NCBI GenBank assembly: GCA_009785325.1
Contig: WQWN01000002.1
Location: 1-64,000 of the forward strand
Length of the DNA: 64,000 bases
From: Candidatus Saccharimonadota bacterium
GTDB lineage: Bacteria > Patescibacteriota > Saccharimonadia > Saccharimonadales > Saccharimonadaceae
Reading direction: 5' to 3'
Shown here: positions 51,119-54,735 of the stretch, in pieces
How the letters are laid out: each line of letters starts with the position of its first letter
Numbering within the stretch: the stretch's first letter is position 1
Translations under genes and position numbers: made by a program
The notes under the pieces: model-generated
What the model was told of the DNA's origin: nothing
Seen by the model: only the letters and a program-made list of their open reading frames with translations
The model's database searches: none

Positions 51119-51213
51119 TTGACAAAATGGGGGGGGGTTGTGTTATTGTGTGATTTCAGCTGAGAGGGAATGTTTAGTTAGATTCTACTCGGCTTTTTCG
51201 CGAGAAGCGAGTA
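51119..51213 (+). promoter_or_regulatory. Promoter and leader hairpin of the ubiquitin-like operon
   Basis: TTGACA (51119-51124) precedes a G-run spacer of 18 bp (9 consecutive G) and a -10 TTATTG (51143-51148), or TATTGT one base later. The leader has a hairpin TACTCG/CGAGTA (51186-51213) extended by GCTT/AAGC, followed by CTTTTAC. It could be an attenuator. The ribosome site GGAGGGAGG precedes the first gene. Confidence 0.5.
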
Positions 51214-51250
51214 CTTTTACAAATAGTTTTGGAGGGAGGCGGACTGATAA

Positions 51251-52516
51251 ATGGTACTGCGATGCGGAGATTACAGCGATATTGACTGGAAGGAGGTTTT
51301 TGGAAAGACACTCTGGGCGTTGATTGTTTATGTTGTGTTATTTGGTCTGATATGTTTTATTATCTGGGCTGGTTGCACAAGAGCAGAGACTATGGAATTT
51401 AATGAGTATGCAGAAGCGTTTAATGTATTGTCGGAAGATGAGCGTGAGATGTTTGCGCCGCTTGTGAGATTTCGAGACAGTCTTTCGGAAGAAGAAAATT
51501 TATTCCCACTAAGAACCTTAAGAGACCCTGTTGGAACGCTAATAGGTAGATTGATATGGCTTGCTATTGTGATTGCGCTGCCGATTTTGTCCTTGGTGAC
51601 ATTTCTGGCGTACTGGTACGAGAAGGATTCGCGTTATCGACTGGCGAATTTACCACTTTCGAAGATTTATGGCTGGGTTTTGTTACTAGCGATGTTTGCT
51701 GCATGGCCAATTTTGGTTATCAGTGGCATCATGATGTTAGTGGCGAGATATGGCTGGAGTAAGCGTGAGAAAAAGGCAATTGAGGAGCAGGTACAAGAAG
51801 AACTAGACTATAAGCAACCGTCGGTTAGTGAGCGTATAAAAACAATGCGATCGGCGCGCCAACAGTATGTAAGATACCGTGCAAAAGGCCGTATGGACGC
51901 ATGGCTACACGAAAAACAAGAAATTCAAGAAGCGATCGATAGAGAAAAGAAGCACTTGCAAGCTTGTGGTAAGCGAGTTCAGGAGAGTCAAAAGCGGCTG
52001 AGTGAATATAAAGCTCAAATGGAAGGGATGGGATCTGGTCCAATATCTGAAGAAGATACGAGGGCGAGGGCTGCTGCAGAATGGGATATTATCTCAGAGA
52101 TGCGAGGTGTTTCGTCGATCGTGAGTCGGAAGACGCAAAAATCAGGACAGAAGAGTTTGATTATTGATGTTGCTGTGCGAGTGCCGTATAAAGGTGACTT
52201 GTATGATTTCGGAGATTATCGAATTTCGATTGGTAATGCAGACTTTTCGTGTCGAAGAATTCGTTCTGGTGTTAGGTTGAATGCTTTAAGCAGGTCACCT
52301 GATTATAATCAAAGTAGTGGTTTTTGTTTTGGCGGTCGTCGTAGTGCTATCGATGACTACGTGAAGAACGGCAGATTATTAGAGGCGATTACGCTGATTA
52401 TTGACAGCCTACATTCGGTTAACGAAGGTGTCGAGGTGGATATTCCACATTGTTTTCGTAAAATATCGACCATAGAAAGAGCTCGGAGAAAAATATGGCG
52501 CAAACGTAGCGCATAG
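51251..52516 (+). CDS. Membrane-anchored E2-like protein of a ubiquitin-like system
   Basis: This 421-aa protein has three predicted helices (about 20-42, 97-124 and 139-167), a charged coiled-coil-like region (175-260), and a C-terminal domain (about 295-395). The last reads SPDYNQSSGFCFGG then LLEAITLIIDSLHSVNEG. This follows the ubiquitin E2 plan: a near HPN motif, a catalytic Cys in SGxxC context, then a helix ending in LLNEPN-like sequence. C359 is the candidate thioester Cys. The E2 call is by pattern and by neighbours (JAMM, E1, Ubl). If right, conjugation occurs at the cytoplasmic membrane face. Confidence 0.72.
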   Translation: MVLRCGDYSDIDWKEVFGKTLWALIVYVVLFGLICFIIWAGCTRAETMEFNEYAEAFNVLSEDEREMFAPLVRFRDSLSEEENLFPLRTLRDPVGTLIGRLIWLAIVIALPILSLVTFLAYWYEKDSRYRLANLPLSKIYGWVLLLAMFAAWPILVISGIMMLVARYGWSKREKKAIEEQVQEELDYKQPSVSERIKTMRSARQQYVRYRAKGRMDAWLHEKQEIQEAIDREKKHLQACGKRVQESQKRLSEYKAQMEGMGSGPISEEDTRARAAAEWDIISEMRGVSSIVSRKTQKSGQKSLIIDVAVRVPYKGDLYDFGDYRISIGNADFSCRRIRSGVRLNALSRSPDYNQSSGFCFGGRRSAIDDYVKNGRLLEAITLIIDSLHSVNEGVEVDIPHCFRKISTIERARRKIWRKRSA

Positions 52517-52527
52517 GAGGTGTAGGT

Positions 52528-53037
52528 ATGCTAGATTTAGTCATACCTTTGAAAATTTGGCAGGAGATTTTGTATTGTACGAAGCTGTGTGATCCGAACG
52601 AAGTGACCGGAATTGGGATATTGAGGTTGAAGAGAGTGGATAAAGAAACTCTGAAGGTGGAGCGATTGTTTTTACCTGAACAGAAGGTGTCACGCGGCTT
52701 GAGTACTTTTGATGAAACGGCGCTGCACGGCATAATCGTGGATCTTGCTGATGAAGGTAAGGGGGATGATATAGAGTGGCTGAGGTTTCGCTGGCACTCG
52801 CACGGTAGAGGAGATGTTTATTTTTCGACTATTGACGAGGAAGATATCGACAACTGGGCGGGCGACTGGGTGATAAATTTGGTTGTAAATGTGTATGGCG
52901 AACATGTGGCGCGGTTGGATATGTTTGAGCCGCTGCGCATCCGGCAATATCCTGTGCGAGTGATCATAGATTACCCTGTCAACAGGCGACTTATGGATCG
53001 CTGTAAAGACGAGGTCGATGCAAAAGTACGAGATTAG
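52528..53037 (+). CDS. JAMM (JAB1/MPN) metalloprotease of a ubiquitin-like system
   Basis: This is 169 aa with AGGAGG before ATG. The JAMM signature is complete: H90-x-H92-x7-S100-x2-D103 within WHSHGRGDVYFSTIDEED, with E25 (NEVTGIG) as catalytic Glu. The family removes ubiquitin-like proteins or trims their C-terminus using zinc. It starts 11 nt after the E2-like gene. It would process the Ubl or release it from targets. Confidence 0.88.
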   Translation: MLDLVIPLKIWQEILYCTKLCDPNEVTGIGILRLKRVDKETLKVERLFLPEQKVSRGLSTFDETALHGIIVDLADEGKGDDIEWLRFRWHSHGRGDVYFSTIDEEDIDNWAGDWVINLVVNVYGEHVARLDMFEPLRIRQYPVRVIIDYPVNRRLMDRCKDEVDAKVRD

Positions 53038-53060
53038 TTTCATAAAAAGAGGTGGTATTA

Positions 53061-53714
53061 GTGAGAGATTTTTCGGATCAGACAAATATATTCGACCCCA
53101 GTAAGTTTACTTGGCCAGTACATATAGTTGGTGCTGGCGGTATAGGAAATATCGTAGTGCAACTGCTCGCTAAGATGGGTGTGCAAGAGATTCACCTCTG
53201 GGATGATGATGTTCTGGAGACTCGTAATGGTCCAGTAGAAATTGCCTACAGCGAGGCTTACGTAGGGCAACTAAAGATAGATGCTGCGCGAGCGACTGTG
53301 GATTTTTTGGTTGGAGAGGGTGCTGTTAAGTTGATCACACACAATGAGCGTGTAACGAAAGATACAGCGCTTGAGGGAGTGGTGATTAGCGGCGTGGATT
53401 CTATGGCGAGTCGGGCGGAAATCTGGGAATGTGTGAAAGACAATTTTCTGGGGATTCCACTCTATGTAGATGCGCGTAGTTCCGGTGAAGAAATCATGGT
53501 TTTTGGTTTTTCACCTGCGGATTTTGCTGCAGCGGAAGAGTATACTGAAGACTGGATGTATTCGGATAGTGAAGCTTCGAAGCTGGAATGCGGTGCACGA
53601 AATATCGGCTATATCGCCGCTATGATCGGTGGCGAAATTGCAAGGATTGTTACGAGATTCCATCGGGATTTACCGATTGAATTTAGGACAGCGAGAGATC
53701 TGTCCAACAACTAA
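53061..53714 (+). CDS. E1-like ThiF/MoeB-family adenylyltransferase of a ubiquitin-like system
   Basis: This is 217 aa from GTG 53061 with AAGAGGTGG upstream. The Rossmann nucleotide loop IVGAGGIGN is at 22-30 and WDDDVLETRNGP (the acidic ATP-ribose binding motif) follows. K72 in VGQLKIDAA fits the conserved Lys. C177 in the segment SKLECGARNIGYIAAMIGG is the candidate Ubl-thioester cysteine. There is no CxxC zinc pair, unlike ThiF/MoeB, as in several Ubl-specific bacterial E1s. It is compact (no large Cys or UFD domain). Confidence 0.87.
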   Translation: MRDFSDQTNIFDPSKFTWPVHIVGAGGIGNIVVQLLAKMGVQEIHLWDDDVLETRNGPVEIAYSEAYVGQLKIDAARATVDFLVGEGAVKLITHNERVTKDTALEGVVISGVDSMASRAEIWECVKDNFLGIPLYVDARSSGEEIMVFGFSPADFAAAEEYTEDWMYSDSEASKLECGARNIGYIAAMIGGEIARIVTRFHRDLPIEFRTARDLSNN

Positions 53715-53729
53715 AAGGAGGGCTAGATA

Positions 53730-53957
53730 ATGTCAAAGCAATTAGTAAGAATCTCAGTAGGTGCTGGTACGAAGCCGATCGAGGTGGAGTGGAAGCAGGG
53801 CGACACAGTTGCGACGGTCTTGAAGCGCGCAGACGTGAAGATGGAAGAAGGTAGAGTGGCTACTCTCGGGAAGAAAAAGGTCAAGAATCCCGAAAAGACT
53901 ACAGTGTCGGCAGGCGATCTGATCGTTGTGGAAGGTCAGCCCCGGAACGGATGCTAG
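53730..53957 (+). CDS. Beta-grasp ubiquitin-like modifier protein (Ubl)
   Basis: This 75-aa protein has AAGGAGG before ATG. Order of predicted strands and helix fits a beta-grasp: VRISVGAG and PIEVEW strands, a helix at TVATVLKRADV, then VATLGKK and DLIVVEG strands. It ends PRNGC, so a single Gly is followed by Cys instead of GG. The last residue may be trimmed by the JAMM protein to expose Gly74, or the Cys itself may matter. It is the last gene of the operon, 15 nt after the E1-like gene, before the terminator at 54002. Confidence 0.8.
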   Translation: MSKQLVRISVGAGTKPIEVEWKQGDTVATVLKRADVKMEEGRVATLGKKKVKNPEKTTVSAGDLIVVEGQPRNGC

Positions 53958-54001
53958 GAGCGTCAAGAAATAAGCACTGAGTGCGGCAAAACTATTTGAA
54001 T

Positions 54002-54034
54002 AAGGTCGAGTATTATGCTCGGCCTTTTTCTTTT
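54002..54034 (+). terminator. Terminator of the ubiquitin-like operon
   Basis: GGTCGAG...CTCGGCC stem with TATTATG loop followed by TTTTTCTTTT. Confidence 0.88.
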
Positions 54035-54135: not shown

Positions 54136-54735
54136 TTAGGTGTTTCGCATGTAGTCGATTACTTGCTGCGCGGCGGCTTGTGTGTCGGGTTGACTAGTGT
54201 TTGTAATTTGTGCGATGTTGCCAATTATTACGAGCGTATGGATATTGAAGTTGGCTAGACAGGAGTTGACACTGGCGGCCCAGAGTTCGGCCAGAGCGCG
54301 TTGTCTGGAGATGATACCGTTTGAGTTAAGGAATTTGAGCGTGTGGGGAGTTTGCGAGAAGAGACTGCCAGGTGTGTCGAGAAGTTTAATGATGGCTTGA
54401 TGTGCCGAATCGGGAATGTCGCTAACGAATGTATTGTAGTGGTTCTTAATAGGTATCCAATTGCGGTCTGACGAGTCTGGGTCTTTTTGGCAGTTGTCGA
54501 CAGCCCAGTAGTACAGGAGGACGGTGTGTTTTTTGAAGATTTCAGAGCCTTCGCCGTAGGCTATTTGGTGGAGGAGAGACCCGTGTAGTTCTCTCTTTTT
54601 TTCGTCGGGCCAATCGTATGAGGGTTTTATTGTGACATATATAGTGATATATGTCAATATTAGTGGAGATAGTGCGGGGGTTGAGGTGAGTGTGATACAA
54701 TCATAAGCATGAAGATATTTGTCGCGGCGGATCAT
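54136..54735 (-). CDS. Hypothetical protein with unresolved start
   Basis: The open frame is 199 codons from an ATG at 54735, overlapping the rpiB start on the other strand. A strong minus-strand promoter (54629-54657), however, predicts a transcript starting near 54622, inside the frame. After that point no in-frame ATG, GTG or TTG occurs until near the end. Possible explanations are a non-AUG start or the A7 run at 54595-54601, which could allow slippage, or a second upstream promoter. The protein part is helical and soluble with no domain recognised. Confidence 0.5.
   Translation of the reverse strand: MIRRDKYLHAYDCITLTSTPALSPLILTYITIYVTIKPSYDWPDEKKRELHGSLLHQIAYGEGSEIFKKHTVLLYYWAVDNCQKDPDSSDRNWIPIKNHYNTFVSDIPDSAHQAIIKLLDTPGSLFSQTPHTLKFLNSNGIISRQRALAELWAASVNSCLANFNIHTLVIIGNIAQITNTSQPDTQAAAQQVIDYMRNT
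54629..54657 (-). promoter_or_regulatory. Promoter with inverted repeat TGACAT-N12-ATGTCA at the 199-aa gene
   Basis: Minus strand TTGACA (54652-54657), 17-bp spacer, CACAAT (54629-54634). The inverted repeat extends to TGACATATAT/ATATATGTCA here, the best-conserved copy of the three. Confidence 0.8.

Follow-up and report, generated by a model that had tools for sequence, protein, structure and literature searches.

A Four-Gene Ubiquitin-Like Conjugation Operon with a Predicted Membrane-Anchored E2-Like Protein and a Putatively Phase-Variable Promoter in a Saccharibacteria Genome

Introduction

Could a saccharibacterium carry a complete ubiquitin-like conjugation cascade, fix it to its membrane, and switch it on in only part of the population? 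This question is raised by four closely spaced open reading frames (ORFs) at positions 51251-53957 (plus strand) of a 64,000-nucleotide (nt) stretch of Candidatus Saccharimonadota bacterium (assembly GCA_009785325.1, contig WQWN01000002.1, positions 1 to 64,000; hereafter, the window). The host genome assembly measures 678 kb in 7 contigs. The ORFs encode, in this order, an E2-like protein (E2L), a JAMM protease, an E1-type adenylyltransferase, and a small ubiquitin-like protein (Ubl). Known bacterial Ubl conjugation consists of a few operon types, and their E2s have not been reported to be membrane-bound. We consider it probable that the locus is a complete and self-contained Ubl cascade with its E2 in the membrane and a phase-variable promoter, serving most likely in conflict or phage defense.

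Layout of the Operon

The initial annotation of this DNA had described four ORFs with gaps of 11, 23, and 15 nt, followed by a terminator. All four ORFs are present where it had placed them, and a good hairpin with a T-tail lies at 54002-54026. For the E1 gene, a GTG at 53061 is a likelier start than 53052, with AGAGGTGG upstream of the GTG; this start yields the 23-nt gap and the C177 numbering used in that annotation. The features are as follows (aa, amino acids):

51119-51149, plus strand: operon promoter, predicted to be phase-variable (from the sequence and a layout common to three other genes of the genome)
51251-52516, plus strand: E2L, putative membrane-anchored E2-like conjugating enzyme, 421 aa (ORF; conserved at 18 other loci)
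51308-51364, plus strand: predicted membrane segment 1 of E2L, aa 20-38 (mean hydropathy 2.76)
51551-51607, plus strand: predicted membrane segment 2 of E2L, aa 101-119 (mean hydropathy 2.72)
51677-51733, plus strand: predicted membrane segment 3 of E2L, aa 143-161 (mean hydropathy 2.39)
51743-52072, plus strand: charged linker of E2L, probably a coiled coil, aa 165-274 (sequence)
52073-52450, plus strand: UBC/E2-like domain of E2L, about aa 275-400 (invariant Cys, hhalign, AlphaFold2 model)
52528-53037, plus strand: JAMM/JAB metalloprotease, 169 aa, with E25, H90, H92, S100, and D103 (invariant residues, PDB profile)
53052 (GTG start probably 53061)-53714, plus strand: single-domain ThiF/E1-type adenylyltransferase, 220 or 217 aa (Pfam ThiF)
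53730-53957, plus strand: Ubl, 75 aa, ending in RNGC (conserved C-terminus, PDB profile)
54002-54026, plus strand: intrinsic terminator of the operon (11-pair stem, loop of 3, T-tail)

The E2-Like Protein

Is E2L an E2? Its C-terminal domain contains Cys359 (codon 52325-52327) in the motif S-P-D-Y-N-Q-S-S-G-F-C-F-G, and this residue is invariant across the alignment of 19 Saccharibacteria sequences (19/19). An hhalign comparison of the Saccharibacteria E2L family with a viral HPH...C E2 family gave 98.9% and 1.3e-17, with the catalytic Cys of the viral family aligned to Cys359. Thus, the conservation that had been expected for C359 is borne out. The AlphaFold2 model of the window domain (predicted local distance difference test, pLDDT, 83.9; predicted template modeling score, pTM, 0.76) consists of a helix, four strands, a Cys loop, and helices. 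Structure prediction covered sequences of the window, of L002, and of viral contigs. The model of a viral E2 homologue (pLDDT 83.7, pTM 0.81) was compared with the PDB by Foldseek, and its ten best matches were all E2 enzymes, among them UBE2L3, UBE2L6, and Ubc13 (prob 0.69-0.91, TM 0.46-0.52, E 0.03-0.18).

Hydropathy supports the three N-terminal membrane helices that had been proposed for E2L. The linker behind them gave weak, spurious coiled-coil matches to LeoBC, JetC, and Rad50 profiles. N-terminal membrane segments are present in 10 other Saccharibacteria E2L proteins and absent from 8, and one further protein is cut by a contig end. The anchored forms fall in two neighboring clades of the E1 tree, which indicates that the anchor is a feature of Saccharibacteria gained or lost within the group. 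At another locus (L035:6620-7945, minus strand), E2L has tandem E2 domains, the second of which lacks the Cys (S-G-F-G), like a single-chain pair of an E2 and a ubiquitin E2 variant (UEV).

Several results complicate the reading of E2L as a membrane-anchored E2. The Foldseek matches of the window domain itself were weakly UEV/RWD-like (TM 0.42-0.44, E ~1), the best TM-scores coming from E2-variant (Tsg101/Vps23 UEV) and RWD folds with PDB matches that were not significant, and no E-value fell below 0.001 for either the window or the viral E2 model. Where an HPN-type motif would precede Cys359, the window has S-P-D-Y, in which the His is missing, and the downstream His of L-H-S-V-N in the Saccharibacteria E2s is not invariant. 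The topology is also contradictory. The C-terminal domain must be cytosolic because it must meet ATP, the E1, and the Ubl, yet the charge pattern does not fit three segments: loop 1 is acidic, loop 2 and the C-terminal flank are basic, and the two loops argue for the opposite count from a cytosolic C-terminal domain. Sequence searches of E2L found no match in Pfam, NCBIfam, or the PDB (including a PDB profile search), and single-sequence scans of Pfam, NCBIfam, PADLOC, and PHROG returned only chance coiled-coil or membrane matches. Prokaryotic E2s without the usual His are known, however, as type 6d (PMC1779556). Since the window domain's own Foldseek matches are too weak alone, the fold assignment rests partly on the viral homologue: of the UBC fold claimed at the outset, the strand and helix plan and the homologue's E2 matches stand, whereas the window model's matches lend it little. 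Taken together, the E2 identity of E2L is well supported, not proven.

Protease, E1, and Ubl

The three partners of E2L are easier to place. The protease retains the H-S-H-x7-S-x2-D motif intact, Glu25 completes the active site, and E25, H90, H92, S100, and D103 are invariant in the alignment (17/17). Its profile matched Rpn11/PSMD14 and archaeal JAMM1 in the PDB (E ~1e-6 to 1e-5). The E1 scored 60.2 bits against Pfam ThiF (cut-off 28.1), and its GxGG, D51, D53, K75, D116, and Cys180 (C177 when counted from 53061; codon 53589-53591) are invariant in 21/21 sequences. The best PDB profile match was the NEDD8-activating enzyme (8.5e-19), and NEDD8 and ubiquitin E1s ranked ahead of ThiF.

The Ubl ends in an Asn-Gly that is invariant in all 18 sequences (Gly74 codon 53949-53951), and its profile matched SAMP2 and PF1061 at ~1e-6. 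In four cases, the window included, an extra tail follows the Asn-Gly (Cys, Gln-Ile, or Gln); judging from the sequences, these tails (Cys75 in the window) are predicted to be natural substrates for maturation by the JAMM protease. The initial annotation had read these genes as an intact JAMM protease, a compact ThiF/E1-like adenylyltransferase, and a small beta-grasp protein, and each holds: Glu25 adds to the first, the cut-off is exceeded and the nucleotide-site residues are invariant for the second, and the profile matches make the third a Ubl.

Distribution and Genomic Setting

Counting this genome each time, the E1 was detected in 23 of the 295 family genomes, in 18 of 393 at class level, and in 6 of 380 in a sample from the phylum. 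Among named relatives, the nearest is an uncultured Saccharibacteria metagenome-assembled genome, whose E1 is 61% identical and which has the identical four genes in the identical order. E2L, JAMM, E1, and a small Ubl occur together around the Saccharibacteria hits, mostly in the order E2L-JAMM-E1-Ubl, and other families of the order and more distant members of the phylum have the full set or most of it. A chance arrangement is excluded, as about 20 loci of other genomes carry this set and its catalytic residues are invariant. Co-occurrence of the four genes, in mostly the same order, had been one of three points on which the first reading was staked, besides the UBC fold and the conservation of C359; all three were examined, and co-occurrence and C359 came out in its favor, whereas the fold leans that way partly through the homologue. 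The recurrence of the genes together, combined with the invariance of the catalytic residues across the four families, also supports the claim that they act as one Ubl pathway.

In relatives, the genes for GAPDH, RpiB, and RPE are contiguous, and in the window the operon lies between GAPDH and RpiB. Other genomes have nothing at this site, which makes the operon an inserted accessory cassette; across genomes, its copies sit at variable insertion sites. A 199-aa ORF of unknown family (54136-54735, minus strand), opposing the operon, also lies between GAPDH and RpiB. Around the relatives' operons, no constant companion gene besides the four was found. A plasmid search gave no match, and an Rfam scan of the window gave one tRNA and nothing else. 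Genome G143 contains a second Ubl-type operon (L036:5459-6757, minus strand) whose E1 is composed of two near-identical ThiF halves, with the catalytic Cys lost from the first; this is a recent parallel to the inactive and active halves of eukaryotic E1s and BilD.

A Poly-G Tract in the Promoter

The promoter reads TTGACA-AAAT-GGGGGGGGG-TTGTGT-TATTGT, with the -35 element TTGACA at 51119-51124, a G9 tract at 51129-51137, and a -10-like TATTGT at 51144-51149. The 19-nt spacer holds the G9, which confirms a homopolymer between the -35 and -10 elements. A standard scan covers spacers of 16-18 nt and therefore missed this promoter. Of the promoter that had been annotated, the perfect TTGACA is present; the G9 spacer had gone unmentioned, and the promoter is more unusual than was stated. 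Since G9 gives a poor 19-nt spacer and G7 would give 17 nt, slippage would be expected to switch the operon.

Furthermore, the tract has counterparts. Three G9 tracts occur in the 678-kb genome; tracts of G8 or longer number eight, and four of these eight lie between TTGAC and TA[AT]TGT: that of the operon and those of three genes for secreted IPT/TIG-RCC1-repeat proteins (G000:C1:174345, C4:59085, and C5:57529), whose promoters have 16-17-nt spacers. A search for TTGAC-poly-G-TATNNT found 28 sites in 10 of the 295 family genomes (L197-L216), compared with 1 for the reversed control; the tracts run from 7 to 14 G and the spacers from 14 to 21 nt, and the readable genes downstream often encode secreted IPT/TIG or collagen-like surface proteins. 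From their sequences, G/C homopolymer tracts in promoter spacers apparently form a phase-variation class. Our literature search turned up no paper on phase variation in Saccharibacteria. One G9 tract splits a reading frame, so that frames of 97 and 637 aa overlap (L182 ~2015-2308 and 172-2085; G000:C5:35069), as in a phase-variable or frameshifted gene.

Could the operon then belong to a surface program instead of defense? In such a program, the membrane E2 would tag envelope proteins of the epibiont (adhesins, pili, parts of secretion systems) and alter their turnover or activity for host contact. Because the switch is associated with surface genes, this is the chief rival: poly-G/C promoters elsewhere in this genome drive genes for secreted IPT/TIG-RCC1 surface proteins, those of other genomes drive IPT/TIG and collagen-like ones, and hydropathy places E2L in the membrane. 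However, the operon occurs in less than one-tenth of the family genomes and at variable sites, as an accessory conflict module would more readily than a core surface function, and membrane segments are missing from roughly half of the Saccharibacteria E2L proteins and from almost every viral one. We therefore consider envelope regulation unlikely, while granting it serious attention.

Viral Relatives

Scanning viral contigs (IMG/VR) with the E1 profile gave 157 E1 relatives, the best 80 of which were examined; the initial annotation had not mentioned any viral relatives. Among these 80, JAMM adjoins the E1 in most, a Ubl and an E2L homologue are present in many, and 51 of the 80 stretches contain an ORF with [HSQ][PN]H...C[WLFM]G. 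The Saccharibacteria E2L profile found the viral E2L proteins directly (best 5.7e-10); a scan with the full-length E2L protein, a method that reaches close relatives only, found no viral relative. Nearly all of the viral E2s lack membrane segments. Ubl-E2-JAMM-E1 clusters occur on many IMG/VR contigs (L051-L130), some of them longer than 100 kb, and their Ubls often end in GG plus a short tail. In crAss-like and related gut phages (L131, L132, and L177; e.g., Bacteroides phage Kolpuevirus 'frurule'), JAMM directly precedes the E1, and this pair is placed between the primase and uracil-DNA glycosylase genes. We rejected the crAss-like pairs as full systems, as the neighboring ORFs gave no reliable E2L match.

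These relatives raise a second alternative, in which the cassette derives from phages that modify host proteins and persists as a relic or a domesticated counter-weapon. It would account for E1 relatives on 157 viral contigs, many of the best 80 with Ubl, E2, and JAMM, and for the unrooted E1 tree, where the Saccharibacteria E1s form a single clade (84/99) and viral rows are otherwise widespread. On the other hand, the surroundings of the window copy contain no phage genes (the neighbors are GAPDH, RpiB, RPE, and PfkB), the Saccharibacteria proteins diverged long ago and keep their active sites intact, which argues for a maintained module over a relic, and an unrooted tree gives no direction of transfer. 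We regard a phage-derived takeover module as improbable.

Proposed Mechanism and Function

Two further alternatives would make the operon something other than a conjugation system for conflict. A sulfur-carrier pathway, with a ThiS/MoaD/TtuB-like carrier activated in ThiF/MoeB fashion and processed by JAMM, would suit the compact ThiF-type E1 and the weak ThiS matches of the Ubl; it is very improbable, given that the operon has no rhodanese, thiamine, or molybdopterin genes, that an E2-like protein with an invariant Cys nearly always adjoins, and that the E1, with its invariant Cys, prefers NEDD8 and ubiquitin E1 profiles to ThiF. A PRTRC-type (Iyer type 6d) plasmid-maintenance system stripped of its other parts is hardly credible and was rejected as an identity: although it follows the same logic of E2, JAB, ThiF, and small Ubl, has E2s without the usual His (Iyer 2006, PMC1779556), and gave weak matches (JAMM to PRTRC_A, 0.009; E1 to PRTRC_ThiF, 1.2e-5), the scores lie far under the curated cut-offs (15.6 vs. 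101.8 and 24.8 vs. 144.75), E2L has no PRTRC_B match, neither ParB/ParM nor further PRTRC genes occur in 48.5-57.5 kb or recur in relatives, and the location is chromosomal with no plasmid match.

How might a defensive cascade of this kind work? The gene set, the conserved active sites, the link between the E2 families, the insertion, and the promoter layout were observed directly. Upon them we build a scheme whose chemistry is well supported by the sequences, because of the protein families and their residues, and whose localization, switching, and purpose are proposed more cautiously. The JAMM protease would cut the Ubl precursor behind Gly74 and so release Cys75. Gly74 would then be adenylated with ATP by the small homodimer-type E1, which would hold the Ubl on its catalytic Cys (C177/C180) and hand it to Cys359 of E2L. 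Fixed at the inner face of the membrane by its N-terminal segments and a coiled-coil arm, E2L would conjugate the Ubl, with no separate E3, to lysines of membrane proteins or of proteins next to the membrane, and the protease may also undo the modification. Slippage in the G9 tract would set the -35/-10 spacing and thereby switch the promoter, such that only part of the population expresses the operon. The purpose would be defense against the entry, assembly, or release of phages at the membrane.

We favor a conflict role because of the sporadic occurrence, the insertion, the predicted promoter switching, the viral relatives, and one defense-like neighborhood. In the last, the nearest relative's operon adjoins genes for a Schlafen-type helicase with a GIY-YIG domain, AIPR, a zeta-toxin, and a MazG-like protein (L029:58-4471), the helicase having AbiO/Nhi-like similarity. 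The wider picture is less favorable: such neighbors were seen at this one close relative, plus a PDC-S01-type ATPase at another, and are not general; housekeeping genes adjoin most other copies; and the G9 tract is absent before the relatives' operons, so that switching is claimed for this genome only.

A bolder reading is put forward tentatively. It holds that the operon of this ultra-small epibiotic bacterium performs phase-variable, membrane-tethered Ubl conjugation with an E2 family that is undescribed in the databases and papers compared and is shared with phages, and that individual cells stochastically tag membrane-proximal proteins alongside variable surface proteins, against phages or for host contact.

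What would this mean? The locus adds a lineage with an E2 family unrecognized by curated profiles, a membrane anchor, and an invariant Asn-Gly tail. Its cascade is very small, with a one-domain E1, a one-domain Ubl, and no E3, in host genomes of less than ~1.5 Mb. The presence of homologous clusters on many viral contigs implies that this machinery is used by phages as well as bacteria and may pass between them. By its poly-G promoter, the operon shares an apparent switch class with surface proteins, and such promoters make phase variation in Saccharibacteria directly testable from metagenome reads.

Comparison with Known Systems

BilABCD (Bil), a bacterial ISG15-like antiphage operon, likewise has four genes for Ubl, E2, JAMM, and E1. 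The viral relatives share the Ubl-E2-JAMM-E1 order, of which the window order E2-JAMM-E1-Ubl is a rotation. BilB has a CEHH motif, i.e., Cys, Glu at +6, His at +8, and His at +13 (PMC11354881), which is absent from the window E2L, where the residues after C359 are FGGRRSAIDDYVK. BilA has two Ubl domains and BilD an inactive and an active adenylation domain, whereas the window Ubl is a single domain of 75 aa and its E1 has one ThiF domain in 220 aa; the window E2, moreover, is predicted to be membrane-anchored and is matched by no database profile. We rejected membership in Bil, since the CEHH motif, the two-domain Ubl, and the two-domain E1 are all absent.

Cap2/Cap3 of the cyclic-oligonucleotide-based antiphage signaling system (CBASS; type 6a/6b of Iyer 2006) share the E1, E2, and JAMM chemistry with catalytic cysteines. 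Cap2, however, is an E1-E2 fusion acting on a cGAS-like CD-NTase, with no Ubl gene; the window operon instead has separate E1 and E2 proteins and its own Ubl gene, and its neighbors are GAPDH and RpiB, with no CD-NTase alongside. Matches of PADLOC E1-E2 models to the window E1 are confined to its adenylation part, and Cap2/Cap3 membership was rejected on architecture. PRTRC/type 6d systems (Iyer, Burroughs, and Aravind 2006) likewise have a small separate Ubl with a C-terminal Gly, a JAB, an E1, and an E2 without the usual His, and the window operon differs in having no plasmid, no PRTRC_B match, and no further PRTRC genes.

Bub (bacterial ubiquitination-like) operons are also multi-gene Ubl conjugation operons with a suspected immune role, many of them with dedicated regulation (PMC13373217). 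The comparison with Bub covered the E1, whose profile weakly matched BubCD (1e-7), and solved structures, among which E2L had no match. The viral E2-JAMM-E1-Ubl clusters are homologous to the window operon in E1, JAMM, E2 (hhalign 98.9%), and Ubl; they differ in that their E2s are mostly of the HPH...C type and nearly all unanchored, and many of their Ubls end in G-G plus a tail, as opposed to N-G in the window.

Eukaryotic membrane E2s, such as Ubc6 and UBE2J2, are anchored in the endoplasmic reticulum by a single C-terminal helix. They resemble E2L in having a UBC domain tethered to the membrane; in E2L, by contrast, up to three segments lie at the N-terminus, and no sequence relation to them was shown.

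The general kind of system is clear: an E1, an E2, a Ubl, and a deconjugating protease are encoded together as a bacterial Ubl-conjugation operon. Judged by its sequences, the operon would resemble Bil and other Ubl systems in its working, without a shown membership in any of them, and it looks like an undescribed branch of the bacterial ubiquitin-like systems that is also present on phage genomes.

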